64,000 nucleotides of DNA from Hymenobacter canadensis (GTDB lineage Bacteria > Bacteroidota > Bacteroidia > Cytophagales > Hymenobacteraceae), in contig NZ_CP114769.1 of assembly GCF_027359925.1 (NCBI RefSeq), positions 79,070-143,069 of the forward strand, given 5' to 3'. The notes under the pieces are model-generated. The model was not told the origin of the DNA. It saw only the letters and a program-made list of their open reading frames with translations, and did no database searches. Below, in pieces: positions 10,369 to 29,069 of the stretch (the stretch's first letter is position 1; the number at the start of each line of letters is the position of its first letter). Made by a program: the position numbers and the translations under genes.

Positions 10369-10484
10369 GCGAATTATTGTTTAAATTAATATGAGCAGGC
10401 TATTAAATACTTGCAAGTATGCGAGCTTTTAACAGTATTAAATACACAAGCTGATGAATCAACTTTCACCCATTTAGATCAAAT

Positions 10485-11510
10485 TTAATGGATGTCATTT
10501 TCATAAATCAGATTATTTGTATGCGAAATAGCAATAATACTTTTATTACTACTTCCAGTTTTGTTAATTTCAAATGTGCCATCACCTAAATCTATTAGGT
10601 CATCCATTATAATGATATTATATCGAGTCTCAAGATCCATAACTCCGATAATCCTATCGTGTGATGCGTACCAAAGTTTCTGAAATTCTCTTGAGGAAAT
10701 TATTTGTTCTAATGGATTAACACCTACGTGCCCAAAACTTTTTTTATGATGTAGACAGTTTTTTACTTCTCCTTCACTATTAATACACACCTTCTTGTTA
10801 TAGTAAGGATTATACTTCAAAGCTTCAGTGAAATAATCAACATCGACAATATACTTATTTCTATCGCTGCTTTCCAATTCATTAATACTTTTATTCATTA
10901 CCCGAACCGAATTTTGTTCACTATGAATAAAATCAGGGCAGCTATACCAAACCACTGCTTCCAACTTTTTAAAAGTGGTCGTCAACGAGTAGAGATCTCC
11001 CAATGATATCAGATCACTATATTTAATAGCTAAAATTACCGATCGTGTTGTGGTCTGGTCAAGACGATTCAATACGTTATGTAAATCGGGGAGCGAAAAA
11101 ATATCTGTCAATTCAACTCTTAGTTCAACGTAAGCACAAATAAGATCGTCCAGTTGATCAATAAGGCCATACAGATCAAAGCCACCACCATTATATTCAA
11201 TTACGGCACTACTGATATGTTGAGAGGAAAGGTATGACAGGTCTAACTCAGGAAATGCACTTGGCTCGCAAGTGTAAAAAGCAAGATTATTATCTAAAAG
11301 GAAATAAATATATGAAAACACAGTTTCCCTATTATTATTTCCGTAGCATTTTACCACATCATCGATAGGAGAACAGCTTATTTTTTCAATAAGATCCAAC
11401 ATGGAATTAGGGATAAACTTCATATTACAACGTTGCAAGTCACATATTAAGCTACGGTCTTTGCCCCTAACCGGAATACAAAACGCATATAATTTCAAGT
11501 AATTTTCCAT
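10485..11510 (-). CDS. gwsS: Grasp-with-spasm SPASM-type partner protein with degenerate C-terminal cysteines (GwsS-like)
   Basis: The N-terminus (KLYAFCIPVRGKDRSLICD, then LQRCNMKFIPNS) matches the GwsS family that accompanies an ATP-grasp ligase in Bacteroidota graspetide clusters. There is no CxxxCxxC radical-SAM motif, as expected for this family. The first part of the SPASM-like region is kept (KKVCINSEGEVKNCLHHKKSFGHVG, Cys242 and Cys252; then LEQIISSREFQKLWYASHD). Where family members usually carry a C-x-x-C-E-x-R-x-x-C pattern, this protein reads VMDLETRYNII (290-300), with no Cys at any of those places and none after 252. The frame is intact at 341 residues. It is therefore a divergent or non-metal-binding version, not an obvious pseudogene. 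Confidence 0.8.
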   Translation of the reverse strand: MENYLKLYAFCIPVRGKDRSLICDLQRCNMKFIPNSMLDLIEKISCSPIDDVVKCYGNNNRETVFSYIYFLLDNNLAFYTCEPSAFPELDLSYLSSQHISSAVIEYNGGGFDLYGLIDQLDDLICAYVELRVELTDIFSLPDLHNVLNRLDQTTTRSVILAIKYSDLISLGDLYSLTTTFKKLEAVVWYSCPDFIHSEQNSVRVMNKSINELESSDRNKYIVDVDYFTEALKYNPYYNKKVCINSEGEVKNCLHHKKSFGHVGVNPLEQIISSREFQKLWYASHDRIIGVMDLETRYNIIIMDDLIDLGDGTFEINKTGSSNKSIIAISHTNNLIYENDIH

Positions 11511-11525
11511 GATGTATTTTGTTGA

Positions 11526-11732
11526 TTAAATTTTAGTAAAAACCAATTTTGAAATTGGCTTATTGGAGCTGTAACATTTAAGAAACGTTGATTGGTGCTT
11601 AATTGACAAACTAAATTCAGTGTTTGCATACATTTCACCAACTTCCGATATCTCTTCTTTATCCATTATTTGATAGAACAATGGCAATTTATTTAAGTCT
11701 TGTTCAAGAACAAATGTTTTAGATTGGTCCAT
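11526..11732 (-). CDS. Small protein (68 aa) between gwsG and gwsS
   Basis: The frame MDQSKTFVLEQDLNKLPLF... lies 26 bases after the ATP-grasp gene and 15 bases before gwsS, in the same direction, so co-transcription is very likely. It has no signal peptide and no GG motif, so it is not another precursor of the same type. I do not recognise it. Possibilities are a leader-binding accessory, an immunity peptide or a decayed gene. Confidence 0.55.
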   Translation of the reverse strand: MDQSKTFVLEQDLNKLPLFYQIMDKEEISEVGEMYANTEFSLSIKHQSTFLKCYSSNKPISKLVFTKI

Positions 11733-11758
11733 TTTTAGATCGTTTAAAATGTCTGTTG

Positions 11759-12748
11759 TCAGTTTTTAATGCATGGATTATTATTCTCTGCTAACCAACT
11801 AGCAATCTCTCTTTCGACATTATAATTACAGCGTTGAGCTGGAGCACTATATTGCCCGACTGGATTGACTTCCAGAAAATAATATTTATTATCCTTAGTC
11901 TTGATGGTGTCGATAGAACCAGTATTTAACTGAAGATGATGCATTAACTTTATCAAGTTTGCCTCATATTCTTCAGGAAGACTATATGGAACCCATGCAA
12001 TATTTTTTTTGTTCTGATAATTTAGTTTTATATCAACGTTTTTGTTTGAATTATCATTAACAAGAATAGCTGTAGAGTAAAATTTATTCGCCATAAAAAA
12101 AGTACGAATCTCAAAATCACCTTCTACTCTCTCCTGAAATAATGAGGGAAAGAAAGTTTCATTGCCTTCAAGTATTTGATTTTTAGTAATAGAAGTAGTG
12201 TAAGCTGAATAAGCAAAATTGTCACGCACAAAATATCCACTATGATGAATAGGCTTTGTGATAATACGTTCATTACAATCTTGATAAAAATCCAATAGGC
12301 TACTTTTAGATTTAAGGATTTTAGTTTTAGGTACTAGAATTCCCAATGAATGTGCTTCGGCGGTTACTTCAAGCTTATTGACATCTATATTTTTGTAGTT
12401 AGGCATCCACTTTTTACCTTGTAGCGCAGTGAAAAGATAGTCAGCTAAGAAACTAAGTTCTACATTAGCTTCTCTTTCAAGCTGAGAGTTTAGCTTTTCA
12501 CATTGCTCATCTAATTGCAACTCAACTTTTTTATTAAAACGCCTGTACCAAATAACATGAATATCATTTATCAGGTCGATGCCTTTATAAAATATTTTGT
12601 TTTGAGTTACATCAATATCTAAATCGTTCTTTAGACTCGCTAAATCATCAATGGTGATTTTAATAAATTCTTCTTTTTGATGTAGTAACCACTCTACAAC
12701 AGCATCAGTACCTTGTTCATAATGCTGATAGGTTAATATTAGTATCAT
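11759..12748 (-). CDS. gwsG: Grasp-with-spasm ATP-grasp peptide ligase
   Basis: The 329-residue protein starts MILILTYQHYEQGTDAVVEWLL, typical of the GwsG/MvdD-like ATP-grasp ligases that build macrocyclic esters or amides (omega-links) between Asp/Glu and Ser/Thr/Lys side chains. The C-terminal catalytic segment KYYFLEVNPVGQYSAPAQRC (about 290-310) has the E-x-N metal/ATP residues, and RIITKPIHHSGYFV supplies the central ATP-binding lysine. The length is normal. It lies directly downstream of the precursor array, separated from it by a hairpin. Confidence 0.9.
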   Translation of the reverse strand: MILILTYQHYEQGTDAVVEWLLHQKEEFIKITIDDLASLKNDLDIDVTQNKIFYKGIDLINDIHVIWYRRFNKKVELQLDEQCEKLNSQLEREANVELSFLADYLFTALQGKKWMPNYKNIDVNKLEVTAEAHSLGILVPKTKILKSKSSLLDFYQDCNERIITKPIHHSGYFVRDNFAYSAYTTSITKNQILEGNETFFPSLFQERVEGDFEIRTFFMANKFYSTAILVNDNSNKNVDIKLNYQNKKNIAWVPYSLPEEYEANLIKLMHHLQLNTGSIDTIKTKDNKYYFLEVNPVGQYSAPAQRCNYNVEREIASWLAENNNPCIKN

Positions 12749-12782
12749 ATTACAAAAAGATTTATTTTAAGCGATTGATTAA

Positions 12783-12828
12783 AATAAGTAAGGCAGTTCA
12801 CACGTTGGTATGGACTGCCTTACTTATT
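12783..12828 (-). terminator. Hairpin between precursor array and gwsG (likely partial terminator)
   Basis: A perfect 15-bp stem (AATAAGTAAGGCAGT / ACTGCCTTACTTATT) encloses a 16-base loop. On the minus strand it is followed by TTTTAATC. Its position between precursor genes and enzyme genes fits an attenuator that keeps precursor mRNA in excess. Confidence 0.65.
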
Positions 12829-12897
12829 TATTTGAATCACATGAAACTATAAATTACTTTTCAACTAGCAAAAGTTTCACGATATTCTAATTCGGGA

Positions 12898-13041
12898 TTA
12901 ACCGTCGTAGCTATTCGAGTCGACGTCGTCCTTCTTTGAGCAATCGTAGTCGAGTGCCAGTTCGATACCGCCAGCGATGAGGTCGAGCTCCTGCTCGTTG
13001 ATTTGCTCGAAGCCTTCCAGAGTTTGCAGAGAATTTTGCAT
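12898..13041 (-). CDS. Graspetide precursor 1 (core type A)
   Basis: The 47-residue peptide has leader MQNSLQTLEGFEQINEQEL then DLIAGG, with cleavage expected after Gly25. The core is IELALDYDC (26-34) then SKKDDVDSNSYDG (35-47). Asp/Glu and Ser/Lys are the expected link partners. This unit is nearest the enzyme genes and would be the last transcribed. The ATG was chosen because the conserved leader begins there in all ten units; upstream in-frame sequence belongs to the next unit read out of frame. Confidence 0.88.
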   Translation of the reverse strand: MQNSLQTLEGFEQINEQELDLIAGGIELALDYDCSKKDDVDSNSYDG

Positions 13042-13081
13042 TGTATTGGTTGTTAAAAAGTGGATGAGAAAAGAATTACTA

Positions 13082-13225
13082 TTAGTTGTCGTGGCTATTC
13101 GAGTCAACGTCGTCCTTCTTCGAGCAATCGTAGTCGAGTGCCAGTTCGATACCACCGGCAATGAGGTCGAGCTCTTGCTCGTTGATTTGCTCGAAGCCTT
13201 CCAGAGTTTGCAGAGAATTTTGCAT
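13082..13225 (-). CDS. Graspetide precursor 2 (core type A)
   Basis: The leader is the same as in precursor 1. The core is IELALDYDC then SKKDDVDSNSHDN, so it differs only in the last residues (HDN instead of YDG). It ends in TAA. The spacer upstream, before precursor 3, is the short 32-bp version. Confidence 0.87.
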   Translation of the reverse strand: MQNSLQTLEGFEQINEQELDLIAGGIELALDYDCSKKDDVDSNSHDN

Positions 13226-13257
13226 TGTGTTAATTTTTAAAAGTGGATGAGAAATTA

Positions 13258-13401
13258 TTAACCGTCGTAGCTATTCGAGTCAACGTCGTCCTTCTTCGAG
13301 CACTCACCGGGAGCGTCGAGAACTAGACCGCCAGCGATGAGGTCGAGCTCCTGCTCGTTGATTTGCTCGAAGCCTTCCAGGGTTTGCAGAGAATTTTGCA
13401 T
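13258..13401 (-). CDS. Graspetide precursor 3 (core type B)
   Basis: The leader is the same but the first eight core residues differ: LVLDAPGEC then SKKDDVDSNSYDG. The half after Cys34 is unchanged. This modular swap suggests that residues 26-33 are the variable, product-defining part and that the C-terminal half carries the conserved linkage sites. Confidence 0.87.
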   Translation of the reverse strand: MQNSLQTLEGFEQINEQELDLIAGGLVLDAPGECSKKDDVDSNSYDG

Positions 13402-13441
13402 TGTGTTGGTTGTTAAAAAGTGGATGGGAAAAGAATTACTA

Positions 13442-13585
13442 CTAGTTGTCGTGGCTATTCGAGTCAACGTCGTCCTTCTTCGAGCAATCGTAGTCGAGTG
13501 CCAGTTCGATACCACCGGCGATGAGGTCGAGCTCCTGCTCGTTGATTTGCTCGAAGCCTTCCAGAGTTTGCAGAGAATTTTGCAT
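13442..13585 (-). CDS. Graspetide precursor 4 (core type A)
   Basis: The protein is the same as precursor 2 (core IELALDYDC, SKKDDVDSNSHDN) but ends in TAG instead of TAA. The alternation of YDG and HDN ends, and of 184 and 176 steps, across units 1-5 points to duplication of a two-unit block. Confidence 0.87.
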   Translation of the reverse strand: MQNSLQTLEGFEQINEQELDLIAGGIELALDYDCSKKDDVDSNSHDN

Positions 13586-13617
13586 TGTGTTAATTGTTAA
13601 AAGTGAATGAGAAATTA

Positions 13618-13761
13618 TTAACCGTCGTAGCTATTCGAGTCGACGTCGTTCTTTTTTGAGCAATCGTAGTCGAGTGCCAGTTCGATACCGCCGGCAATGA
13701 GGTCGAGCTCCTGCTCGTTGATTTGCTCGAAGCCTTCCAGAGTTTGCAGAGAATTTTGCAT
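13618..13761 (-). CDS. Graspetide precursor 5 (core type A)
   Basis: The core is IELALDYDC then SKKNDVDSNSYDG, with one Asp38-to-Asn change relative to precursor 1. If Asp38 were an acceptor in a side-chain link, this copy would lack it. The difference is therefore informative about connectivity. Confidence 0.87.
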   Translation of the reverse strand: MQNSLQTLEGFEQINEQELDLIAGGIELALDYDCSKKNDVDSNSYDG

Positions 13762-13801
13762 TGTGTTGGTTGTTAAAAAGTGGATGAGAAAAGAATTACT
13801 A

Positions 13802-13945
13802 CTAGTTGTCGTTGCTATTCGAGTCGGTGTCCTCTTTCTTCGAGCACTCACCGGGAGCGTCGAGAACTAGACCGCCGGCAATGAGGTCGAGCTCTTGCTC
13901 GTTGATTTGCTCGAAGCCTTCCAGGGTTTGCAGAGAATTTTGCAT
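13802..13945 (-). CDS. Graspetide precursor 6 (core type B)
   Basis: This is the second type B core: LVLDAPGEC then SKKEDTDSNSNDN. It has Glu38 and Thr40 in place of Asp38 and Val40, and an NDN end. The leader is unchanged, and the gene ends in TAG. Confidence 0.87.
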   Translation of the reverse strand: MQNSLQTLEGFEQINEQELDLIAGGLVLDAPGECSKKEDTDSNSNDN

Positions 13946-13985
13946 TGTGTTGGTTGTTAAAAAGTGGATGAGAAAAGAATTACTA

Positions 13986-14129
13986 CTAGTTGTCGTTGCT
14001 ATTCGAGTCGACGTCGCCCTTCTTCGAGCAATCGTAGTCGAGTGCCAGTTCAATACCTCCGGCAATGAGGTCAAGCTCCTGCTCGTTGATTTGCTCAAAG
14101 CTTTCCAGAGTTTGCAGAGAATTTTGCAT
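13986..14129 (-). CDS. Graspetide precursor 7 (core type A, Gly38)
   Basis: The leader has one change (LESFEQ for LEGFEQ). The core is IELALDYDC then SKKGDVDSNSNDN, with Gly at position 38. The unit is repeated without visible change in the next two copies. Confidence 0.87.
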   Translation of the reverse strand: MQNSLQTLESFEQINEQELDLIAGGIELALDYDCSKKGDVDSNSNDN

Positions 14130-14169
14130 TGTGTTGGTTGTTAAAAAGTGGATGAGAAAAGAATTACTA

Positions 14170-14313
14170 CTAGTTGTCGTTGCTATTCGAGTCGACGTCG
14201 CCCTTCTTCGAGCAATCGTAGTCGAGTGCCAGTTCAATACCTCCGGCAATGAGGTCAAGCTCCTGCTCGTTGATTTGCTCAAAGCTTTCCAGAGTTTGCA
14301 GAGAATTTTGCAT
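14170..14313 (-). CDS. Graspetide precursor 8 (same product as precursor 7)
   Basis: The encoded peptide and the surrounding 184-bp unit match precursor 7, indicating a recent duplication. Confidence 0.87.
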   Translation of the reverse strand: MQNSLQTLESFEQINEQELDLIAGGIELALDYDCSKKGDVDSNSNDN

Positions 14314-14353
14314 TGTGTTGGTTGTTAAAAAGTGGATGAGAAAAGAATTACTA

Positions 14354-14497
14354 CTAGTTGTCGTTGCTATTCGAGTCGACGTCGCCCTTCTTCGAGCAAT
14401 CGTAGTCGAGTGCCAGTTCAATACCTCCGGCAATGAGGTCAAGCTCCTGCTCGTTGATTTGCTCAAAGCTTTCCAGAGTTTGCAGAGAATTTTGCAT
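14354..14497 (-). CDS. Graspetide precursor 9 (same product as precursor 7)
   Basis: The encoded peptide and unit match precursors 7 and 8. Three identical copies in a row would raise the dose of this product above the others. Confidence 0.87.
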   Translation of the reverse strand: MQNSLQTLESFEQINEQELDLIAGGIELALDYDCSKKGDVDSNSNDN

Positions 14498-14537
14498 TGT
14501 GTTGGTTGTTAAAAAGTGGATGAGAAAAGAATTACTA

Positions 14538-14681
14538 CTAGTTGTCGTTGCTATTCGAGTCGACGTCGCCCTTCTTCGAGCAATCGTAGTCGAGTGCCAG
14601 TTCAATACCTCCGGCAATGAGGTCAAGCTCCTGTCCGTTGATTTGCTCAAAGCTTTCCAGAGTTTGCAGAAAATTTTGCAT
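14538..14681 (-). CDS. Graspetide precursor 10 (first in the array, variant leader)
   Basis: This is the first unit transcribed. The core is as in precursor 7, but the leader has two changes: Ser4 to Phe (MQNFLQ) and Glu16 to Gly (INGQEL). Changes in the leader could alter enzyme or exporter recognition. The region upstream (14682-14924) should hold the array promoter, but I see no clear TAnnTTTG match there. Confidence 0.85.
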   Translation of the reverse strand: MQNFLQTLESFEQINGQELDLIAGGIELALDYDCSKKGDVDSNSNDN

Positions 14682-14924
14682 TGTGTTGGTTGTTAAAAAG
14701 TGGATGAGAAATTTTTAATTGAAAAAAGAATTTATTATTGTGTTTTTTTGACAGCAGTATGTTTATAATTAATATTTTCAAGTTGACTAATAATTATCAT
14801 AAACACTGTTTCATTAATGATAACCGATGTTTCAATACTGCATTACCACCAAGTGATATTTATATATTCGCTAGTTTAAACTGGCGTTTTACATCAACAG
14901 TTATTTCCTGACACATCCTCCCAT

Positions 14925-17327: not shown

Positions 17328-18239
17328 TGCATTTTCATTTAACTATGCTGAACTATTTAAACCAATTAACCGGTATTAGTGACATCTATACTCGAAATTT
17401 GTCAGGAATTTTCTGTGAACTCATTTCGCAAACGTCCTCCCGTATTTATATTGAATTCAATACTCATCGGCTTATTCATTTAAATCATTCAACGTTATCT
17501 TTTCCCCTTGTATCTGTAACAAACTTACTTTAGTCCCTTGGCCGTAGAAAGATTATTACACCAACTGGACATTCGTATGGACGAACGCACGTGGATGCAG
17601 CCGAGCGGTCTGAATATCCAGCTAGTAAAGTCCGAGCAAGTCAAGTCTATCAAAGCACAGATTTGCGCACAATACTCTGACAATCAATTACTTGTATATT
17701 AATTTGTTGCGCTATTGGAACGAATACCGTTCCTTCCCTGACAAATGGAGTTGCTGTAGCTATTGATCTGCGGAATCACAGGCGTAAGCTGAGACGAGCT
17801 GTAGCCGCCAGCTTGGGTTTTGGAGCTGTTGGCGCATAACTACTGCTACATAATGCTGACCAAGCCTTCCCTGCAGTGATGAGCACATTCCCGTATTCTT
17901 AGTGCAAGCGTACTTATCGGGGAAGTGGTGCTTGAATAAGCTTCGTCAAAAAAGCAATGTTGAGTAACCCAGGAGTTGTCTACACGTTAGGCGTTGCCGA
18001 CCTCTACGAATTACCTCCTCAATGCATGGACCAGTTAAGGGTACCTAACAAAACTGGGGTTTGTATATAGGAGCTATGGCAAAACCACTGGTTTAAGATG
18101 AGTTTTAGATCTTGGTAGCGCCGTTGCTACCGCCGGCCGCTGCGCACCCGAAAAGAGGCCGGCCGCGGGTAGGAAACCGCGCTGCGCTAACAGGTATCCT
18201 ATTCGCGTTACGCAGCAGTATTCCGGGATAAATGCTGCC
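17328..18239. other. Intergenic stretch between the graspetide island and IS remnants
   Basis: No convincing gene. A 41-codon plus-strand frame (17577-17702, MDERTWMQPSG...) could be a gene scrap. Composition returns from AT-rich to GC-rich over this interval, so the right boundary of the island probably lies here. It also holds the 5' region of the outer-membrane protein gene. Confidence 0.35.
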
Positions 18240-18852
18240 GGCCGAAATGGACTGCGGGTGGGGCATGACCTCTTGGCGCCACCCACGTGCCTGGCACAAG
18301 GCCGGGGTTGTGGCAGCGTCTGCACCAGGTGTTGCAAGACCAACTTAACGTGGCCAGACAACTCGATTGGTCCTGTGCCAGCCCAGACGCGCCAAGCATT
18401 CCGGCTGCAAAAGCGGGGCTTAAACCGGGCCGAATCTGATGGATTGCGGCAAGCCGGGCACCAACTGCCACCTGCTCGTTTACCGCCGTGGCACGCCGCT
18501 AGCGGTGCAGTCGAGTAGGGCTAACCAGTACGAATCGACTGTATTCAACACGTTGCTGGATGCGGTTGAGCCCGTATGCCAGGTGCGCGGCCGCCCGCGC
18601 AAACGCCCTACCAGACTGCATGCGGAAAAAGGCTACGACTACTGTAAGTGCCATCCAGCGCTACGCAGCCGCTGCATCGAGTCGAGCGAGCGCGTGGGGT
18701 GCCACCGCTGGGTGATCGAGCGGATCTTCGCTTGGCTCAACCGCAACCACCGTCTGCGCATGCGTTACGAACGCCGCGACGACATCCACCTGGCCTTCAC
18801 TAAGCCTACCTGTGCCCTCATTAATCTTAAGGCATGCATCAGGTTTACTTAG
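18240..18852 (+). pseudogene. Decayed IS5-family transposase
   Basis: The final frame contains LHAEKGYDYCKCHPALRSR and ESSERVGCHRWVIERIFAWLNRNHRLRMRYERRDDIHLAF, the IS5/IS1031-type C-terminus. Upstream pieces GMTSWRHPRAWHKAG and WQRLHQVLQDQL fall in other frames with stops. The copy has several frameshifts and is dead. Confidence 0.75.
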
Positions 18853-19640
18853 TTACTCTAAGTCCCGAAAGCGCGTGGCCGTGTACTGGCTGCCCTGGTC
18901 GGAGTGCACGGCGAGCCCGGGTGCGGACTGGCGCACAGCCAGCGCCCGGCGCAACGCTTCGTGAACCAAGTCTTCGGGCATCGCCAGAGCGCATGTCCCA
19001 GCCCACAATTTTTCGCGATTAGGCGTCCTGCCAGCTGGCCAACTAGAGCCAGCCGCCGCCCTGTTTGGGCAGGCACGTGATGTTGCCTACCAGGACCTGG
19101 TTAGGGGCCGTGGGGGCCGGCTGGACCAGCAAGCGGTTAACCGCCACGCGCCTGCCGTGACCCCAGGTAGCGGTAGTGCGAGGTACAAACAGCGGGGCTG
19201 CTGGGCGCGCAGTAGCTGCTTAGGTCTACCTGCAGCACCGTGCAGAGCGCCCGCACCGGCACAGCTGCGCGGTGCTGGTCAATGAAGCAGTAGCAGCTCA
19301 CGGAGTTTCGCGGTTGAAGATGGCCAAGGCTTTTTTTAATATGACCAATTCGCGCTGCAGACGCTGGTTCTCGGCCCGCAGTGCCCGCCATTCCGAGTCG
19401 CGGGTCTGCTCCACGCTACCCGCTGCCACAACGGTTTGTTACTGCTGCCGGCGGTAGCGCAGCTTCTTGCTGATGCCCAACTGCCGGGCCGCCGCTTGGG
19501 GCGAGTGGCTTTTGCCGGCCAGACGCAAGGCTTCGGTCTTGGATGCATCGTCGTATTTGCGCCGCTTATCCGGCTTGCTGACGTGCAGAGATGTTGCCAT
19601 GACGGCAGGAAAATACGTCCTTATTCCGTCCAGCCTCACT
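18850..19640 (-). pseudogene. Decayed IS3-family element (orfA and orfB remnants)
   Basis: On the minus strand, orfA survives as KRRKYDDASKTEALRLAGKS then HSPQAAARQLGISKKLRYRRQ (19640-19439). Downstream pieces MPEDLVHEALRRALAVRQ, APGLAVHSDQGSQYTATRF come from an IS3-type orfB integrase. Frames are broken and large parts are missing. The remnant separates the lan-type genes from the graspetide island. Confidence 0.7.
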
Positions 19641-19679
19641 AGACCACCTCATAATAGTCTCCACATCCTGGGAGCTTTC

Positions 19680-20930
19680 CTATAACATGAACTCTTGCCA
19701 GTCAAGCTCCTGCTCTGTAAGGGAGGATAGTAACACAAGTCCAACGCCCATTAATCCTTGACGCAGGTCGTCAACTGGCAATACCTCAATACCAGCTGCC
19801 AATTCTTGCCGGACTAGCTTCAAGGTTTGGTCTAGCCAGGAGTGATACCCTTGCTTGTATGCTGGATGGCCACTTAACTGATAGAGCTTCCGATACAACA
19901 TCACTACTCCAGCTGCGCCCCGGTCAAACTGCGCGCAAACTATGCCCGTAGTGCAGCTCGTAGTTCGCAGCAAAGTACTGAGCCCAACTAACTCCGCAAT
20001 CTTCGCTAATTCCGCATCCTTGAGTAAATCATGGGCCTCGTACAACACCCAAGCTTGTCCTAAGTCGCCCTGATGCCAGTTCATTTCCGCACTATAGCTG
20101 ATCTGTCCCGTAGCTTTGCAGAAGTGGTCCGGAAAAATTGAATATCGGCATTCCCCAAAGTCAACTGCCTGTCGTAACGGCAGTAGTGTTAGAATCCCGT
20201 CCCGGACTTTTTGCTGGGTATGGGAATCCGATAGACCTTTTCGGCACAACCTCACCAGCAATAGAAGTTCACCTGCTTGTCCCGACGTCAGTCCAAGTAG
20301 TATAGGATCTGCCTGCTCCAGCTGGGCACATAAAGGCAGCAGTAATTGAATGTTTCCCCGGATGCCTTCATCATCTAGGCGTAAGCTGAAGTAGCGAAGA
20401 ATTGAGAAGATGCGCGCACGGTTGGCCGCCGCGGGAAATAGCATCAGGCATTCCTGTAATAAATTCTGATCATGGGCACGAAGAACCGTTTGGATTCGCT
20501 GAGCTACTACAGGCTGTTGCACCCTAAGCCGTGGATAGAGCCACGCCAGCAAAACCAAATGCTCATTCTCTATTTTCAACGGGGAATAACTTAAATAATC
20601 AAGGATTTGTACGCCCATCTTTTGGATAAGAACAGCATCCTGCTTCTGCCCAAAAACGGTGTGAACGCAATATTGATAACAAGTAGAACTAAGTAATTGC
20701 AGCAGCGTGACACCCTCCCGGTTCCGCTCTATAAGCAGCGAATGTAGGAGCTGCCAACCCTGCATAACGTTTATTGGCAACTGGTACACAACGTCTATTG
20801 AGGAAGATCCACTGAGTGGAGGTAAAGAAAAGATTGCATCCTGCGCCTGATGATAAAATCCACAACGACAGCTTGTTGACAACAAGCTGTCGTTGTGGGT
20901 GCCCAGGTTAGCCGCAAGGCAGTGAAGCAA
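19680..20930 (-). CDS. LanC-like protein lacking the zinc ligands
   Basis: The protein is of normal LanC length (416 residues from the first ATG) and has the family's repeated helix-G-x-G segments: GLTSGQAGELLLLVRL, MNWHQGDLGQAWVL, FDRGAAGVVMLYRKLY and RQGLMGVGLVLLSSL. In active LanC cyclases the second is W-C-x-G and the third is C-H-G, and these three residues bind zinc. Here they read W285-H286-Q-G and D336-R337-G, so all three ligands are changed. The true start is uncertain: the first 25 codons overlap a strong hairpin, and ATG at codon 56 or a GTG/TTG start after the hairpin are alternatives. It lies downstream of the Cys-free precursor in the same direction. It may be a non-catalytic or repurposed cyclase. 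Confidence 0.75.
   Translation of the reverse strand: MLHCLAANLGTHNDSLLSTSCRCGFYHQAQDAIFSLPPLSGSSSIDVVYQLPINVMQGWQLLHSLLIERNREGVTLLQLLSSTCYQYCVHTVFGQKQDAVLIQKMGVQILDYLSYSPLKIENEHLVLLAWLYPRLRVQQPVVAQRIQTVLRAHDQNLLQECLMLFPAAANRARIFSILRYFSLRLDDEGIRGNIQLLLPLCAQLEQADPILLGLTSGQAGELLLLVRLCRKGLSDSHTQQKVRDGILTLLPLRQAVDFGECRYSIFPDHFCKATGQISYSAEMNWHQGDLGQAWVLYEAHDLLKDAELAKIAELVGLSTLLRTTSCTTGIVCAQFDRGAAGVVMLYRKLYQLSGHPAYKQGYHSWLDQTLKLVRQELAAGIEVLPVDDLRQGLMGVGLVLLSSLTEQELDWQEFML
20861..20897 (-). terminator. Perfect 18-bp hairpin between precursor and lanC-like gene
   Basis: CACAACGACAGCTTGTTG and its exact complement are separated by one base. On the minus strand the stem is followed by GATTTTATC. It lies about 100 bases after the precursor stop and inside or just before the lanC-like gene, where class I lantibiotic operons often carry a partial terminator. 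Confidence 0.7.
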
Positions 20931-20993
20931 CCACGCGATTAAAGGCAGAATTAGGACTGTGCTCTCATCACTTTGCGTAGTAAAGCCAGTTTT

Positions 20994-21125
20994 TTACAAG
21001 AAAGTAATCTCCGTAACGGTAGCAACGGAGGTAGGGGCCGTTGCAGAACCATGAGCAGCCTTCTTGAATCGGGTAACAATAGTCTTCGTGAATTGAAACT
21101 TGGGGTTATTATTCGCGTTTTTCAT
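20994..21125 (-). CDS. Cys-free lanthipeptide-type precursor peptide (43 aa)
   Basis: The frame runs from ATG (21125) to TAA (20994) and has no longer competitor. The leader contains KFQFTKTIVTRFKK, resembling the K-[LF]-x-[LF]-x-K-x-T-I leader box of Bacteroidota class I lanthipeptides. The C-terminal part, GSATAPTSVATVTEITFL, has seven Ser/Thr and no Cys. It is preceded by a TAnnTTTG-type promoter and followed by a hairpin and the lanC-like gene, and a LanB dehydratase lies 2.7 kb away. It is most likely the LanB substrate. Without Cys it cannot form lanthionine by itself. Not a chance frame: leader, promoter, terminator and neighbours all agree. Confidence 0.75.
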   Translation of the reverse strand: MKNANNNPKFQFTKTIVTRFKKAAHGSATAPTSVATVTEITFL

Positions 21126-21174
21126 CAGATTCTATTGTTTGAAGAAATATGGATAGAAATGCGTTTGACTTGAA

Positions 21175-21205
21175 CAAACGTAGATGATTGGTAAAATTTA
21201 CTAAA
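21175..21205 (-). promoter_or_regulatory. Putative Bacteroidota sigma-A-type promoter of the precursor/lanC operon
   Basis: On the minus strand TACGTTTG (21182-21175) matches the -7 consensus TAnnTTTG. TTTA (21205-21202), one base from TTTG, lies 19 bases upstream. It sits 50 bases before the precursor ATG. Confidence 0.55.
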
Positions 21206-21589
21206 AACTGTTACACCAATCCCCCTATTAGATAGACCAACCCTGCTTTTCTTGCATTTTGAAGCAGTACCGAATCTGCCCCCCCCCCCGCCCGTATGGA
21301 TGCAATGCACGGGGCTAGCGACCAGGGAGGGCTTGATAGCCTGGAAACAGAATATCCAGGCAAATTGGAGGTTCTGGCGATCTAAAAGCTCCCCAGAACC
21401 TCCCGGAGCAAAAACCTTATGCCTACGCCCGCAGGATGGCTAACAAGTAGCTCATTGTTGCTTTCGACTGCATCAGACAAGGTGCCTTTGCCGAGCCACC
21501 GCGGGCCACGCGCGTAATGGGCAGCAGATTATTGAGCCGAGTACTGAAGATGCCATCCTGTAAAGTCCGCCCCGTGCTGACTGACGACT

Positions 21590-21880
21590 TAGGGTATTTT
21601 CCTGGGCAGCTGCACCGGTGAATTGGTGGTTTCCGGGCGATTACTGCTTGACCCGCAGCTGCTGCTGCTTCACTTCAACGCGCCGCGCCGCTTAGTTGAC
21701 TCGCCCACTACTAACGGCAAAGTCGAGCGCTTCAACTGGCTCCTGAAGGCAACCATCATTCGGCGTTGAACAAACTATAGTCCCGGTCAAAGAGCACCCA
21801 CAAGCCTGTCTACTGTTCTACGATCACGCCAAGCAGCAAGGATACCGATGCGGGTTGACGCCACGCGAATTTTTCTGTGC
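21590..21880 (+). pseudogene. Fragment of an IS481-type integrase gene
   Basis: One frame reads HFNAPRRLVDSPTTNGKVE then RFNWLLKATII, typical of the last part of the IS481 integrase core (NGKVER box). A shifted frame continues FYDHAKQQGYR ... LTPREFF. There are stops between and no N-terminal part, so it is dead. Confidence 0.65.
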
Positions 21881-21996
21881 CTAATGGCATAACCGCCTAA
21901 TTAGCTTCCCTTGTAACCCGCCCCAACTAAGTTCGGGGCTATGCTGCTAGTAGAGTGAACGTCCATATTTGATAGTTTAGCACTTACTTTCACTGT

Positions 21997-23040
21997 ATGA
22001 GAAATAGTGCTATAAAACTTAAGCCAATCCTGCTTCACTCCATGGCTTGGGTTGGCTTCATCATATACGAACTACTCATCGGAATTGCGATTCGCCCCGC
22101 ATCGATCAGCCTGCTCGAAACAGGGATGGGATTTTGTATTAATGCGACACTGTTTTACACCAATTGCTTAGTACTAATGCCCTGGCTTTTTGCCCGGCGG
22201 CGCTATGTGCTTTACTTCCTCTCCCTTGTAGGACTATTAGGGTGCTTCATTGTGATACGACATATCCTTAGGGTTGATGTCTTTCCGTTGTTGGGCATCC
22301 CCGTAGCCACCCCCATAGTTTCGCTAAGGATCTTCATTGCCGAATCACTTTACCGGGGCATGTACTTTTTGTTGCCAAGTATTGGCTATTGGTTCGCGCG
22401 CAATACTATCCAATTGGAACAGCAAAAACGCGAGCAGGAGCATGAGTTGCGAGTAGCCGAAAAGAGCCTGATGGAAGCCAATTTATCGTTTCTAAAGAAT
22501 CAGATCAACCCACACTTCTTATTCAACTCACTTAACTTTCTTTACGCTCAAGTGTATCAGTATTCTGAACAGACGGCTAAAGGCATTCTGTTACTGTCAG
22601 ATATAATGCGTTATGCACTGCAGGAGGACGACGACAATGGCAAGGTGATGCTGAACAAAGAAATTCAACACCTTCACAATTACATTGCTATCAATCAGTT
22701 ACGATTCAACAATCAACTTCAGGTACAGTTTGAAGTCCGTGGCAACTTGCAGTTCATGATGATCCTGCCACTGGTCCTAATTACATTCGTAGAGAACTGT
22801 TTCAAGCATGGAGAGCTATCAGACCCGCGTAATCCGCTGTTGATTCAACTCAGCATAGTCAATAACCAACTAACTTTTCACACCCATAACATGAAACGTA
22901 ACGGTCCCAAGGAAAAATCAATGGGCATCGGCTTGGCCAACACCAAGCATCGGCTTGAATTGACATATCCAAACCGCTATACTTTGACTATAAACGATGA
23001 GCAGAATCACTATACTTGCCATCTTACTATTGCCTTGTAA
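21997..23040 (+). CDS. LytS/YehU-type sensor histidine kinase
   Basis: The 347-residue protein has four hydrophobic segments in the first 135 residues, a short coiled coil (about 137-165) and a His_kinase domain with phosphoacceptor His173 in NQINPHFLFNSLNFLY. The ATP-binding part has ITFVENCFKHG and GIGLANTKHRLEL. It is translated just ahead of its LytTR regulator (3-base gap). Position between precursor/lanC-like and lanB genes suggests it senses an envelope or peptide signal for this locus; this is inference. Confidence 0.88.
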   Translation: MRNSAIKLKPILLHSMAWVGFIIYELLIGIAIRPASISLLETGMGFCINATLFYTNCLVLMPWLFARRRYVLYFLSLVGLLGCFIVIRHILRVDVFPLLGIPVATPIVSLRIFIAESLYRGMYFLLPSIGYWFARNTIQLEQQKREQEHELRVAEKSLMEANLSFLKNQINPHFLFNSLNFLYAQVYQYSEQTAKGILLLSDIMRYALQEDDDNGKVMLNKEIQHLHNYIAINQLRFNNQLQVQFEVRGNLQFMMILPLVLITFVENCFKHGELSDPRNPLLIQLSIVNNQLTFHTHNMKRNGPKEKSMGIGLANTKHRLELTYPNRYTLTINDEQNHYTCHLTIAL

Positions 23041-23043
23041 ACT

Positions 23044-23775
23044 ATGATTTCTTGTCTAATCGTGGACGATGAACAGGGAGCGATAGATATTCTACGCACG
23101 TTTATCGAGAAAACCCCTTTCCTGAGTCTGCAGGGTAGCACAACCAATCCTATTGAAGCTCTAAGTATAATTCAAAACCAGCCGGTAGACCTGCTGTTTC
23201 TGGATATACACATGCCTCAGCTTTCGGGTCTTGACTTTATGCGCCTACTGAAAGGCCATACCAAAGTTGTTCTTACCACTGCCTACAATGAGTTTGCTGT
23301 CGACGGATTTGAACTGGAAGCCTTGGACTATTTGCTCAAGCCCATTGCATTTGAGCGATTCCTGAAGGCTGCTCAAAAGGCTCTTAACGTCGCTATGGAG
23401 CCTTCTTCGCACTGGCAGGTAGCCGAGAAGAAAGATGATTATATCTTTGTTAAGACGGAGAGCAAAGGCAAGATGACCAAGGTTAACTTCGATGAAATCG
23501 TATTTGTGGAAGGCATGAAAAACTATCTTTCCATTAATACTTATGAAGATCGAATTGTCACGCTACTCAATATGAAGGACTTAGAAGACCGGTTACCTTC
23601 CCAACAATTTATGCGCGTGCATAAATCTTACATTGTGGCTTTAAACAAGATTAAGGCGCTCGACGGCAACCAGATATTGTTCAAGAACATAAAAGCCTAC
23701 GTGCCATTAGGGGAAACCTACCGTAATGCCTTTTTCGAAGCCTTAAATGAGAAGATGATGGGCGGCAAGAAGTGA
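23044..23775 (+). CDS. LytTR-family response regulator
   Basis: The 243-residue protein has a receiver domain (acidic pocket D8/D9, phosphoacceptor Asp54 in LLFLDIHMP, Thr in VVLTTAYNEFA, Lys in DYLLKPI). A LytTR DNA-binding domain follows from about 140 (FVKTESKGKMTKVNFDEIVF ... QFMRVHKSYIVALNKI). It is the partner of the kinase at 21997. Its stop is one base from the stop of the convergent lanB gene, with no room for a separate terminator. Confidence 0.9.
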   Translation: MISCLIVDDEQGAIDILRTFIEKTPFLSLQGSTTNPIEALSIIQNQPVDLLFLDIHMPQLSGLDFMRLLKGHTKVVLTTAYNEFAVDGFELEALDYLLKPIAFERFLKAAQKALNVAMEPSSHWQVAEKKDDYIFVKTESKGKMTKVNFDEIVFVEGMKNYLSINTYEDRIVTLLNMKDLEDRLPSQQFMRVHKSYIVALNKIKALDGNQILFKNIKAYVPLGETYRNAFFEALNEKMMGGKK

Positions 23776-23776
23776 C

Positions 23777-26700
23777 TCAGTTCTGTTTCCGGTGAATCGC
23801 CTGCTGCGACGTATGGTGCCGGTGCAGAAAATCGTAAAGTAATAGTTCGTGTAGGCGTGCCTGAACCGGGATCAAACGGTTCAACAACATGTGCAGGTAA
23901 GAGCCAAGCAATTGCTCCTTACTCAGACTTACCGCGCGCTGCTTAATCAGCAATGTTAGCTCTTGCGCTGTGGCTGCCAGTGCCGGGGGGACTATGGCTG
24001 CTTCGGTCCGCGCCAGTACTTGCTTGATGGCCGTCCGAGCCGTCCTGTATTTAGTATCGAGCTGCAGTTTTAAGTTCTTATCGAGATTGAATTCCCGCCC
24101 AAACTGGTCCTTCAGCCCCTGTAACAGTGCTATTTTTTCCGCCGCCGAACACTCAAAAGCCATCAGTAATTCTTCCATTGCTCCCAATCCCCACAGCCAG
24201 CTATCTGCCTCTCCATTTTGGCTGGCCAGCACCTCCAACACTGCCTTGCTCTGGTAACCAAAGAGTTGTTCAGCCAACTCAATAGCTTGACTACCGTAGC
24301 GCTCCAGCTCACGCCGGTAAGTATCAGTCTGTAATTTCCAGATTACCCCGCTAGCAATAAAAGGCTGCAAATAGCTGCTGATGAGCAATATTATCTCCCC
24401 AATGCGTCGAGGATCAGGCAAATGGAATCGCAGGCGCAAGTGGTTCTCAGGATCAGCGTAGCGAATAAAAAACCAGTTATCTATTAAGCTTTGTTGCTGC
24501 AACTGCTGGGTTAAGGGCTGAATAGCTTCCAGTAGGACACTATCGGCCGCCTTTTGACCGCAGTATAGTTTATAGTAAAGCCACTCCGACCCTATTGAAA
24601 ATTCACGCTGCTCGGTTGTTGGCCTGCCGGCAAGCGGCCCAAGCCGGTTTACGGAGTAGCTTGGTTGCTGCCGCACTAATTGTGCAATAAATTGGTGAGC
24701 ATACGGCTGCCCCATTGAGTCGCGTACAGGACTCGTGATGGGATCAAACAAGAATTCTTTCACCTCAATACAGGACCGGTTGCGAATAATATCAAGCCAA
24801 GTCTTTACCACTGAATCGTTTTCGGCATCCACCAGAAGCTCATTATCACCATCAGCAAGAGTGAACAGCCGAGGCAACTTCCACTGTTGTCGGAACTGAC
24901 GAAAGCAAGCAGCACTACTGGCCGGCTCCGCAGCTAGCAGTGATTTCAAATCTGCCTGGTTGAAGCGCCAGCAAGCAGGCTCTAGCACCACTTGCCGATA
25001 AACAAGGCGGGGCAGAAACGTATGGTGCTCCGATACTGATTGCCAACTGAAACCTAGCTTTGGCTGCAGGCCCTGAGTTTGCAAGTCGCCTAGCAACTGA
25101 TACACTGGTAGCGCTTCATGCGCAAAATTGTGTGCTGTGCTTAACCGCGGAATAATCTGCTGTCCTGTGCGGCTGGAGCGTAACACTAGTTGCTGATCCC
25201 TTACTGATAGCAGCAGTTCCTGTACCTGTACTTGCTCGGTCGCGGGCCGCGTCGACTGGGCCAGATAAGGAATTTCCACAGCTCGTAAACTCGGCCGTAA
25301 CAGTATATTACCAACGCGGCTAGCGGGTAGATGACAGATTTCGGCAAATATTACTGCCGGATTATAGTCTTGCTCTTGCTCCACAATAGTGCGTACTATG
25401 TGCTCAATTGCCGGTACTGCGTGCCCAAAGCGGCTTAATAAATTGACGGCACTTGCGCCCCCTACACTTTCAAGTAGCACTTGCTCAGCTCCAACTAACC
25501 GAAACATTACGCTCACAGAAGGGGGAAGGGGCTCGGCAGCTGGTGTAAAATTCTCTACCTCAAGTCGCGTTATTTCAACAGTATACTGTCCAGCTCGCGC
25601 CGCTGACAGTAGCTTCTGATACATGTACTGCTGCACCGGCGATTGTGCGGTAGCGGATCCAAGCGGCTCAACCATTGGTAGGACCAGATCGTCAATCAGA
25701 GGGGAATAACTGCTCTGGCCGTACTCGGTGTAGGATAAACCGCTTTCGTTATCAAGTGCTTCTAGCAGAGGCACCTCCCGGTCCTCGTAGCGCGCCTGAA
25801 AGCGCCGCCGAAAGTCATTGAGTCGCGTTTGTTGCGGCGCCGGAGTCAAGTAACGCAGTATGTCCAGCGCGTCAAGCAATTGGTCCTGCAGAGCTGTCGC
25901 TAGCGTAGAATTAGCCGACAGGCCCGTTACTGCATCGGTCTGAAACAGTTTACCAGGCTCAATAGGGACACCTAAAGGGGCTAGGGTTTCTATGATTCGT
26001 TCGTAAGAAGCCGCGAGATTAACGGGTGCTTGGTCTACTGCCGCTAACTGCTGGCGAACATTCTCTAAAATATGAGTTGCAGTGGTAAGTTCCCCTGCCT
26101 GAGGGGCAGCCTCTACCAGCCGAGTTAGGACTTGCTGAATACGGAAAAAAAACTCTTTGCCAGTAACAGTAGGTTCAAGTTCATGTACCAGTACTTGGGC
26201 CTTAATTAGCTCATCAATGAACTGCGCAGCGTGCTGCTGATCATCTTCTTCGTCACTAAGTACGGCAATCAGTTCCGAGTACTGCAAACCTGCCTGGGCA
26301 GCTGTCAGCAACTGGTACAAATACGCAGATCCTTCGACGGCACTAATCTGATGGTGTCGGATCCCGTGGCGGTACTGATGCTCAATGTAGCGCAGTTCGT
26401 CTCCTACTCGGTAAATACTAGTATTGGGCCAGTAGCGCAACTGGGACTTACTAGTGGGATGCGCTGCCAGTCGGTGGGCTAGAGCACACAAGTAGTGCAT
26501 ATCCAGACGTGTGTGCCGAGTCGCATTTTCTGGTACTACTTCTATCTGACTCTGCTTACCCCACGTTACTATACCACACCCAGCAAACAGGCCAAATGGA
26601 GTACACCGGCTGAAACTACGCAGATAGTAGCGGGTAAGGGAACCACGCAGCTTTTTTACCTTATGGGAATCAGTAAGCTCACCATTTTGCCACTTATGGC

Positions 26701-26857
26701 ACTGCTCGTACAGCGCTGGGGAGGCTAAATATACTGCCTCCATGAAGCGCTCATTGGCTAAGAAGGTCTGAATGGTAGCGTAGTCGATGGTCAGCTGAAA
26801 AGGCTGGGTAGGAGTACGCAAAATGAGGTGAGGATGGAAGCAATAAACATCTTTCAT
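23777..26857 (-). CDS. Class I lanthipeptide dehydratase (LanB, full length)
   Basis: The 1026-residue protein matches the usual full-length LanB. The N-terminal glutamylation domain has the hallmark RSFSRCTPFGLFAG (about 80-93). The C-terminal elimination domain (SpaB_C, from about 750) has SEWLYYKLYCG, NWFFIRYADPENHLRLRFH and a normal end. LanB uses glutamyl-tRNA to dehydrate Ser/Thr in the precursor. Both halves are in one frame without breaks. Only 44 bases separate its ATG from the end of an old IS3 copy, so the native promoter may have been lost or replaced. Confidence 0.92.
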   Translation of the reverse strand: MKDVYCFHPHLILRTPTQPFQLTIDYATIQTFLANERFMEAVYLASPALYEQCHKWQNGELTDSHKVKKLRGSLTRYYLRSFSRCTPFGLFAGCGIVTWGKQSQIEVVPENATRHTRLDMHYLCALAHRLAAHPTSKSQLRYWPNTSIYRVGDELRYIEHQYRHGIRHHQISAVEGSAYLYQLLTAAQAGLQYSELIAVLSDEEDDQQHAAQFIDELIKAQVLVHELEPTVTGKEFFFRIQQVLTRLVEAAPQAGELTTATHILENVRQQLAAVDQAPVNLAASYERIIETLAPLGVPIEPGKLFQTDAVTGLSANSTLATALQDQLLDALDILRYLTPAPQQTRLNDFRRRFQARYEDREVPLLEALDNESGLSYTEYGQSSYSPLIDDLVLPMVEPLGSATAQSPVQQYMYQKLLSAARAGQYTVEITRLEVENFTPAAEPLPPSVSVMFRLVGAEQVLLESVGGASAVNLLSRFGHAVPAIEHIVRTIVEQEQDYNPAVIFAEICHLPASRVGNILLRPSLRAVEIPYLAQSTRPATEQVQVQELLLSVRDQQLVLRSSRTGQQIIPRLSTAHNFAHEALPVYQLLGDLQTQGLQPKLGFSWQSVSEHHTFLPRLVYRQVVLEPACWRFNQADLKSLLAAEPASSAACFRQFRQQWKLPRLFTLADGDNELLVDAENDSVVKTWLDIIRNRSCIEVKEFLFDPITSPVRDSMGQPYAHQFIAQLVRQQPSYSVNRLGPLAGRPTTEQREFSIGSEWLYYKLYCGQKAADSVLLEAIQPLTQQLQQQSLIDNWFFIRYADPENHLRLRFHLPDPRRIGEIILLISSYLQPFIASGVIWKLQTDTYRRELERYGSQAIELAEQLFGYQSKAVLEVLASQNGEADSWLWGLGAMEELLMAFECSAAEKIALLQGLKDQFGREFNLDKNLKLQLDTKYRTARTAIKQVLARTEAAIVPPALAATAQELTLLIKQRAVSLSKEQLLGSYLHMLLNRLIPVQARLHELLLYDFLHRHHTSQQAIHRKQN

Positions 26858-27569
26858 GAAGAACAGATTGCATAAAACTCCGAATGCCGGATAGTTTAGA
26901 ATGTACTGCTGCCCAAAAAACCGGGCATTTTAAGGGGGATTTGTTAGGCAAATTTGTGGTGGGTTGAAGGTAGAGGTTTGGGCGAAGAATTAGGCGGGAG
27001 GGGCCCTATAAAGGCTTGATGGGGACGGTGGTAATTGTAGTAGGGAAAGTAGGCCTGCCGCTGCTCGTAGAGGTAGTGGCTATTGATGGCGGGGTTGAGG
27101 TACAAGCACTCCCTTTTGACCGAGCGCCAGAGGTGTTCGATGAAGGCATTATCGGTGGCCCGGCCGCGGCCGTCATGGCTAATCTGGCAGCCGACAGCCA
27201 GCAGCGCCTGCTCGAAGGGCTGGCTGGTAAACTGGCTGCCTTGATCGGAGTCGAAGATGAACGGGGCGGGTTAGGTGGCCAACGCCGTGTGCAGGGCCGT
27301 AAGGTAGAAACCCACGTCGAGCGTGTTGCTCAGCTCGAAGCTCAGCATATAGCACGAGTGCCCGTCAAGCACGGTCACCAGCTAGAACAAGCCCCGGTCC
27401 ATCGGCACGTAGGTGATATCGGTGCTCCAAACTTGGTTTGGCGCCGTCAGCACCTGTTCGCGCAACAGGTACGAATAACGCGTTTTGCCTTCGCCAGGTA
27501 CCGACAGGCGTAGTTTTGTAGTACTCCCTAAAAGTTGGACAGTTTCTGGCGGCTATCTTAGTCAACGCC

Positions 27570-27860
27570 ATGAACCCAAAACGCACCCGTCGCCGCTTTA
27601 CTGCTGCCTTCAAAGCAGAAGTAGCGTTAGCCGCCCTGACGGAGCGGCACCCGCTGGCTGAACTGGCCACGCGCTACCACTTGTCCGTCGCACAGATTAG
27701 CCGCTGGAAGCTGCAGTTGCGCCAGCAAGCGGCGCAGGTCTTCACGGAGGCCAGCCCGGCCGCACCAGCCTCGTTGGATGTAGAACCGCTGTACGCCGCC
27801 ATCGGCCGGCTGCAGATGGAAAATCAACTGCTAAAAAAAACGTTGCCGCCATGCGCGTAG
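27570..27860 (+). CDS. IS3-family transposase OrfA
   Basis: The 96-residue protein has a helix-turn-helix (FKAEVALAALTERHPLAEL then ATRYHLSVAQISRWK) followed by a leucine-zipper-like segment (LYAAIGRLQMENQLLKK). An eight-A run at 27833-27840, inside the overlap region with orfB, is a good site for the -1 ribosomal frameshift that makes the OrfAB transposase. Confidence 0.88.
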   Translation: MNPKRTRRRFTAAFKAEVALAALTERHPLAELATRYHLSVAQISRWKLQLRQQAAQVFTEASPAAPASLDVEPLYAAIGRLQMENQLLKKTLPPCA

Positions 27861-28723
27861 CCCAGCAACGGGCCCTGGTGCAAGCCAGTGCCGAAGGCTC
27901 GGTGCAGGCCCGCTGCCAGGCGTTGGGGCTGGCCCGCAGCAGTTACTACTACCAGCCCCGGGGCGAAAACGCGCTGAACCTGGCGCTGATGCGCCTACTC
28001 GATGAGGAGTTCACGCGCCACAACTTCAAGGGCGTGCTGGGCCTGCGCGACCACCTGCGCCAGTTGGGCTACCCAGTCAACGAAAAGCGGGTGCGCCGCC
28101 TGGTGCGGCTCATGGGCCAGGAGCCGGTCTATCCCAAACCGCGCCTGTCGGTGCCCGGCCAAGGTGTCACGCGTTATCCGTACCTGCTGCGCGAGCGGGT
28201 GCTGACGGCTCCCAATGAGGTCTGGAGCACCGACATTACCTATTTGCCTATGGCCCGGGGCTTCCTCTACCTGGTGGCTGTGCTCGACTGGCACTCGCGC
28301 TACGTGCTGAGCTGGGAGCTGAGCAACACGCTCGACGTGGGCTTCTGTCTGAGCGCGTTGTCCGGGGCGTTGCAACAGCAACCGGCCCCCTTTATCTTCA
28401 ACTCCGACCAGGGCAGCCAATTCACCAGCCAGCCATTTGAACAGGCCCTGCTGGCCGCCGGCTGCCAGATCAGCCGCGACGGCCGGGGCCGCGCCACGGA
28501 TAACGCCTTCATCGAGCGGCTCTGGCGCTCGGTCAAATGGGAGTGCGTGTACCTAAATCCGGCCACCGATGGCCAGCACCTCTACCAGCAGCTGCACGCC
28601 TACTTTACCTACTACAATCACCAGCGGCCCCACCAGGCGCTCAAGGGCCTGACACCTGCCCAATTCTTCGCCCAAACCCCTACCTTCAAACCTTCGTCAA
28701 TTTGCTTAACAAACCCCGCCTAA
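27851..28723 (+). CDS. IS3-family transposase OrfB (integrase core)
   Basis: The 290-residue protein has an HTH_21 region (LMRLLDEEFTRHNFKGVLG) and an rve integrase core. The DDE acids lie in EVWSTDITYLPMARG, FIFNSDQGSQFTS and RATDNAFIERLWRSVKWE. It is in the -1 frame relative to orfA and overlaps it by 10 bases. The C-terminus YYNHQRPHQALKGLTPAQFF is complete. Confidence 0.92.
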   Translation: MRVAQQRALVQASAEGSVQARCQALGLARSSYYYQPRGENALNLALMRLLDEEFTRHNFKGVLGLRDHLRQLGYPVNEKRVRRLVRLMGQEPVYPKPRLSVPGQGVTRYPYLLRERVLTAPNEVWSTDITYLPMARGFLYLVAVLDWHSRYVLSWELSNTLDVGFCLSALSGALQQQPAPFIFNSDQGSQFTSQPFEQALLAAGCQISRDGRGRATDNAFIERLWRSVKWECVYLNPATDGQHLYQQLHAYFTYYNHQRPHQALKGLTPAQFFAQTPTFKPSSICLTNPA

Positions 28724-29069
28724 ACTGTCCAGGTTTTGGGGAGTAGTACATTTAGCCGCAAGCTAGCTCCTGGCCCATCAGGGGCACGAGGCGACGTACG
28801 CGCATTTCATTGACAGCATAGCCCAATAGGCACATCAGCGCCAGAATTAGTGCACTTTCGACTCAGGGCTGGTAGTAGTAGCTGCTACGGGCTAGCTCCA
28901 GGGCCTAACAGCGGGCCTGCACCGAACCATCGCTGCGGGCCTGTATTAAGGCGCGTTACTGGATTACGCACATGGCAACAGCATTTTTTTAGCTGGTTTT
29001 GCATTTGCAGCCGCCTGATGGCTGCGTAGAGCGATTCCACGGCCAGCGCGGCGGGAGCAACCGCACTCA

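Follow-up and report, generated by a model that had tools for sequence, protein, structure and literature searches.

A Hymenobacter locus with an intact LanB, a Cys-free precursor and a zinc-less LanC-like protein: a possible lanthionine-free branch of class I lanthipeptide biosynthesis

The 64-kb stretch of Hymenobacter canadensis DNA analysed here (the window; all bare coordinates are positions in it) carries the genes and features listed in Table 1. The LytS/LytTR pair is placed between the precursor-lanC genes and lanB, and transposase genes flank the locus on both sides (18439-18852 and 27851-28723); transposase remnants between the precursor and lytS were recognised by eye only. Searches of the window genome for the LanB C-domain, for LanC proteins and with the precursor profile (the window peptide being among its sequences) gave a single match each. 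A search of positions 18000-29000 against Rfam gave no matches.

Table 1. Genes and predicted features of the LanB/LanC-like locus in the window.
Feature	Position	Strand	Evidence or remark
LanC-like protein (putative pseudo-cyclase)	19680-20930	-	PF05147 28.0 bits vs cut-off 23.2, C-terminal half only
Cys-free precursor, 43 aa, leader FQFTKTIVTRF, core with Ser/Thr	20994-21125	-	
Predicted LytTR operator TTGGT-N16-TTGGTGTAA	21211-21240	-	115 bp upstream of precursor
LytS-type sensor histidine kinase	21997-23040	+	PF06580 79.5 bits
LytTR response regulator	23044-23775	+	PF04397 76.6 bits, PF00072 73.6 bits
Full-length LanB, glutamylation and elimination domains, 1026 aa	23777-26857	-	PF04738, PF14028

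The earlier note on this sequence had seen no exporter or leader protease in the locus. A C39-peptidase ABC exporter is encoded nearby (8182-10368, -), which qualifies that statement, but its gene adjoins those of two maturases, ATP-grasp and SPASM, that belong to another cluster of graspetide type. A second C39 match lies elsewhere in the genome, and no exporter is conserved together with the cassette. The graspetide-type cluster (8182-14711) is of low GC content; its SPASM protein scores 151 bits against TIGR04193, under the cut-off of 175, its ATP-grasp protein is over the cut-off of TIGR04192, and it includes about 9.9 tandem 184-bp repeats, the translated ones encoding double-glycine precursors. 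The window further contains a gene for a 983-aa protein (34048-36999) with a subtilisin-like (mycosin-type) match below the family cut-off.

The LanC-like protein keeps the alpha,alpha-toroid fold of its family. As the earlier note had proposed, it is zinc-less: the ligand positions Cys, Cys and His align to H286, D336 and R337. The damage goes beyond what was claimed there, since the catalytic Asp and His are also lost, being replaced by A169 and S216. These five positions correspond to the active site of NisC, which includes Asp141 and His212 (PMC9889658), and a 2010 survey found CHG conserved in 98% of LanCs and WCYG in 95% (PMC3091789). The positions of A169 and S216 hold Asp and His in all 18 zinc LanC rows that we aligned (16 distinct; rows selected for Cys, Cys, His), and all five active-site residues are lost in 24 of the 27 rows of the window type. 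The exceptions are L047 (Asp and one Cys kept), L131 (one Cys) and L068 (Asp and His); the first Cys and the His ligand are kept in none of the 27, and no replacement is common to all of them. The first 51 residues of the window ORF are disordered in the model, and the true start is probably later, near the GTG at 20789, which matches the starts of relatives. The LanC profile had no match among PDB sequences at E values up to 0.1.

The dehydratase presents the opposite picture. PF04738 is matched with 476 bits (residues 35-681) and PF14028 with 236 bits (759-1014), both domains at full length, so that LanB is complete as the earlier note had described it. We mapped its residues onto NisB by alignment, for 26 LanBs of the window type (25 of the window genus and L147). 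The equivalents of NisB Y80 (Y77 in the window LanB), R83, R87, T89, D121, D299, R464, R784, R786, E823 and R826, of which we take those from D121 onward to be among the key LanB residues, are invariant in all 26, as is a C-terminal His, H989, which we read from its conserved column as the NisB H961 equivalent. The NisB K79 position is occupied by Arg in 24, the window LanB included, and by Lys in two. H989 and the ten positions from R83 to R826 are also kept in all 11 other LanBs compared. In NisB, dehydration is abolished by Y80F and H961A, lowered by mutation of R83 or R87, lowered by about one by T89A and little changed by D121A or D299A (PMC4341554). The conservation of these residues suggests that LanB of the window type would dehydrate Ser and Thr.

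The window precursor contains no Cys, which confirms the earlier note's reading of the substrate. Its leader follows FxFxKx5F, a variant of the LxLxKx5L motif reported in Bacteroidota class I precursors (PMC7268733). Compared with the precursor of a relative, G074, a run of 13 residues, HGSATAPTSVATV, is identical in spite of 0.73 of synonymous sites differing, all changes there being synonymous; the C-terminal tails diverge downstream of a difference of one base in length, which makes the end of the window peptide less secure. Against NF038153, the canonical Bacteroidota class I leader family, five zinc-type precursors score 37-52 bits (cut-off 22), and five of 22 window-type precursors match weakly (best E 0.011); the window precursor gives no match up to E 1. 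The window genome as a whole likewise yields none up to E 1, a search that had no positive control, as 14 control genomes also gave nothing over the cut-off. The precursor profile, too, brought up no class I precursor with Cys at another place in the window genome; such a substrate would have spoken against the reading of the earlier note.

The three-part signature for which the earlier note suggested genome mining recurs in relatives. In a search of 198 genomes, LanC matches were obtained in 38 and LanB matches in 45; zinc-less LanCs of the window type (L003-L028) and full-length LanBs, above 950 bits (L101-L126), occur in the same 26, all of the window's genus. In a further genome, G035, which is 82% complete, only part of a LanB is present, at the end of a contig, and LanC gave no match. 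The precursor profile found a precursor in 24 of the 26, including three genomes outside the profile alignment (G046, G074, G092), and those of G016 and G053 were found by eye. The order lanC, lytS, lytTR, lanB is seen in 17 of 20 fetched loci (L040, L041 and L048 are rearranged), and the precursor precedes lanC in 19 of the 20; in L048, the exception, the precursor of that genome lies beside LanB about 55 kb away.

Beyond these genomes, a scan of genome contigs returned 21 loci, 16 of them from Hymenobacter and one, zinc-less, from Pseudarcicella hirudinis, which belongs like Hymenobacter to the Cytophagales and to a different family; the loci of Runella limosa, a Flavobacteriaceae MAG and a Bacteroidetes MAG have a zinc LanC, and in that of a Modestobacter MAG no LanC was called. 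Of 390 genomes of the order, 32 had a match, and 16 stretches were fetched from them. Five contain the window-type zinc-less LanC (L192, L193, L194, L199 and L200, with L194 repeating Pseudarcicella); the other 11 contain a zinc LanC, in seven cases alongside a second, different zinc-less LanC. The sole LanB match of Pseudarcicella is on another contig, and no LanB was seen within 20 kb around the LanC of L199.

In phylogenetic trees the window-type zinc-less LanCs form one clade (27 rows, support 96/85; in an enlarged tree 28 rows, 95/83), which extends to other families of the order. The first tree required three changes of zinc label (L147 apart); in the enlarged one L147 falls inside the window clade and two changes are enough, with a long-branch warning for L147, L199, L200 and L135, so the window clade should be credited with a single event in which Cys and zinc site were lost. 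A second zinc-less clade is made up of LanCs paired with a zinc LanC (L142, L146, L197, L198, L201, L207) and of others that have no zinc partner in the fetched stretch (L036, L040, L041, L044, L045). Both lanB and lanC are under purifying selection: dN/dS is 0.15-0.20 for lanC in six pairs, the window not among them, and 0.09-0.23 for lanB in seven pairs, one of which includes the window.

The Cys content of precursors follows the type of LanC. From window-type loci we counted 33 precursors, with no, one and two Cys in 23, eight and two respectively (29 counted as 19, eight and two, plus four Cys-free ones chosen by eye from L192, L193, L199 and L200). At zinc-LanC loci, 20 of 21 chosen precursors have 2 to 8 Cys and one has a single Cys. 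These 21 were chosen from motif-picked candidates together with two of L071 and one of L073; left out were near-copies (three of L042, one of L043, two of L143), the repeats L149/L150, presumed chance ORFs, three extra candidates with at least 2 Cys, one from each of L145, L073 and L132, another from L142 with a single Cys, and the Cys-free copy in L132, while zinc-side candidates of the later order-wide search, one-Cys ones of L196 and L195 (one) included, are outside the count. Fisher's test on the association gives p = 9.6e-11 at tip level, a value that overstates independence because the loss is best counted as one event.

The rule has its exceptions. Eight of the ten Cys-bearing precursors of the window type belong to one subclade (L033, L035, L038, three of L042, L050, L138), where thioethers may accordingly occur; the others are those of L047 and L068. 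Another kind of zinc-less LanC, that of L040/L041, goes against the rule in having two-Cys precursors, and so does a Cys-free precursor copy near a zinc LanC in G074. Two loci are possible intermediates: in Runella (L196) a one-Cys precursor accompanies a zinc LanC, and in Pseudarcicella (L068), the deepest branch of the window clade, the precursor likewise has one Cys and the LanC retains Asp and His. Both kinds of cluster occur side by side in single genomes at L037, L042 and L043, the zinc kind having GG leaders and a peptidase exporter nearby (for L037/L042 seen in the overlapping stretches L150/L149). With these provisos, the matched loss of Cys and zinc site beside an intact LanB that the earlier note had singled out is real and conserved in the clade: 23/33 precursors Cys-free, 24/27 LanCs with all five residues lost, 26/26 LanBs with the mapped residues kept.

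One result goes against the earlier note, to which the same precursor beside a zinc LanC would have been adverse: G074 has a single such case, a 421-bp copy, 99.8% identical. The copy (L132:12520-12720) comprises precursor and upstream region, lies beside a zinc LanC cluster and is bounded on both sides by transposase-like sequence, on one side identified by eye. It is adjoined by a DDE transposase copy of about 89% DNA identity to a gene present twice in the window (6043-6849 and 46145-46951).

LytTR regulators bind two direct repeats about 21 bp apart, upstream of their targets. In 25 of 27 precursor upstream regions, at a distance of 111-140 bp from the ATG, a TTGG is followed by a second one 21 bp on, 18 of these pairs being exact and seven having one mismatch; chance expectation for exact matches to a looser pattern is 0.027 per 260 bp, and the 27 regions include near-copies (L040/L041, L131/L132). 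The two misses are the second and third tandem precursors of L042. Among loci outside this set, L192 carries the site exactly and L136 carries it with a mismatch, and no repeat was found at L137, L068, L147, L193, L199 or L200. Upstream stretches of about 460 bp of lanB (n=21) and lytS (n=20) contain no exact site; with one mismatch allowed, a site appears in one and six of them, respectively. The repeat spacing suggests binding by the neighbouring LytTR, and the conserved position upstream of the precursor supports the suggestion of the earlier note that LytS/LytTR may control the operon. The exact 30-bp pattern occurs once only in the window genome, at the site listed in Table 1, and in 27 of 129 genomes, against two matches of a reversed control pattern. 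It is also present in genomes with no cassette match (e.g. G008, G009, G041, G047), and genes behind LytTR-type sites elsewhere in relatives show no common regulon. In L152 (3152-3226) and L154 (3413-3523) a LytTR-type site precedes a similar small ORF ending NNVFDFILFEL.

We consider it probable, with room for doubt, that the locus represents a side branch of the class I lanthipeptide pathway that makes no lanthionine, consisting of LanB, a LanC pseudo-cyclase and a LytTR-switched precursor. LanB would recognise the FxFxKx5F leader of the short precursor, glutamylate Ser and Thr of the core from Glu-tRNA and then eliminate glutamate, leaving dehydroalanine and dehydrobutyrine. Since the peptide lacks Cys and the LanC-like protein lacks a zinc site, (methyl)lanthionine would not form, and the product would be a linear peptide rich in dehydroamino acids. 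The LanC-like protein would be a pseudo-enzyme kept in evolution, whose likeliest function is to bind and hold the leader, LanB or the peptide once modified. LytS/LytTR would switch on the precursor-lanC transcript through the upstream repeat, and lanB, having no exact repeat, would be set separately. There is a laboratory parallel: dehydrated NisA is secreted by a nisin strain whose NisC carries H331A (PMC7378552), an engineered form of what the window family seems to have fixed by evolution. NisB, NisC and NisT form a complex (PMC8546558); inactive NisC did not restore nisin secretion (PMC7378552), which speaks against a plain scaffold function and leaves a partner role for the LanC-like protein a guess.

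The LanC-like protein might still be a cyclase, metal-free or joining another nucleophile (His, Lys) to dehydro residues. Its fold is kept and its gene is under selection, class III LanKC cyclases function without zinc (PMC7268733; PMC10604976), noursin carries a His-butyrine crosslink (PMC10880069), and ten precursors have one or two Cys, among them those of L047 and L068, whose LanCs retain two of the five residues. In view of these precursors and of the metal-free class III cyclases, some members of the family may form rings. Against a retained cyclase stand the loss of all five residues in most rows with no common replacement, and the finding that the cores listed for the Cys count have no Lys, His or Cys that all of them share; we regard it as rather unlikely. 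That LanB stops at glutamylation, or adds another group, we rate as improbable: PEARLs are LanB-like proteins with other activities, but the elimination domain is present here and the mapped residues are kept throughout.

Transposase genes near the locus, a lanC that lacks an ATG where one would be expected and a precursor tail that departs from that of G074 could be signs of a decaying lanthipeptide locus which lost Cys and zinc site through drift. Occurrence in 26 genomes and dN/dS well below 1 in relatives (the window lanC being in no pair) lead us to reject local decay for the family, and with a core peptide identical in G074 and a conserved operator-like repeat it is very improbable for the locus too. 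Least credible is a thioether product, made by a zinc LanC from elsewhere acting in trans or by addition of an outside thiol. Some relatives do have a zinc LanC cluster beside the window-type one, but the window genome gave neither another LanC match nor another class I precursor, and the substrate is without Cys; action in trans is rejected for this genome on its single LanC match.

Seen as a lanthionine-free offshoot, the system resembles class I NisB/NisC systems in its full LanB with mapped residues, LanC fold, leader-core precursor and two-component regulator, and differs in its mostly Cys-free precursors, LanC without zinc site, lack of a conserved exporter and, in the window precursor, of a GG leader end. 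Precursors of the NF038153 or pinensin type (LxLxKx5L) have a related leader motif and occur in some of the same genomes; the window leaders differ from them in motif and in their weak or absent NF038153 match. Class III LanKC enzymes share a LanC-fold domain without zinc, but theirs is fused to kinase and lyase domains. Linaridins, which bear dehydrobutyrine and stand outside the lanthipeptides, are dehydrated by enzymes other than LanB. They are mentioned in PMC10880069. The zinc-less LanM-like CA_C0082 of Clostridium acetobutylicum is also under a two-component (Agr) system, but its dehydratase domain lacks conserved residues as well, whereas the window LanB is intact (PMC10301443).

The titles and abstract openings that we searched, a scope outside which most subscription journals lie, describe no LanB pathway that combines a Cys-free substrate and a zinc-less LanC. 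The closest cases are prochlorosin-type substrates (PMC11251773) and LanM-associated precursors (PMC7268733), in both cases ones that lack Cys, and Bacteroidales LanC-like proteins that have neither the zinc motif nor a LanB (PMC10352776). What would be new here is the class I dehydration half yielding a product that would not be a lanthipeptide. A published mining pipeline drops any ORF whose estimated core contains no Cys (PMC7268733); if our reading is true, mining that demands a core Cys throws such pathways away.

The chances are about even, in our judgement, that an overlooked set of LanB pathways is spread over Cytophagales families and produces linear dehydroamino-acid peptides, with an obligate, non-catalytic LanC partner and a LytTR-switched precursor, perhaps as a reactive signal or weapon. 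The family seems to split the two halves of class I synthesis in nature, dehydration being kept, cyclization lost and the cyclase fold reused; it would make a role of LanC beyond ring closure testable, and points to electrophilic dehydropeptides.
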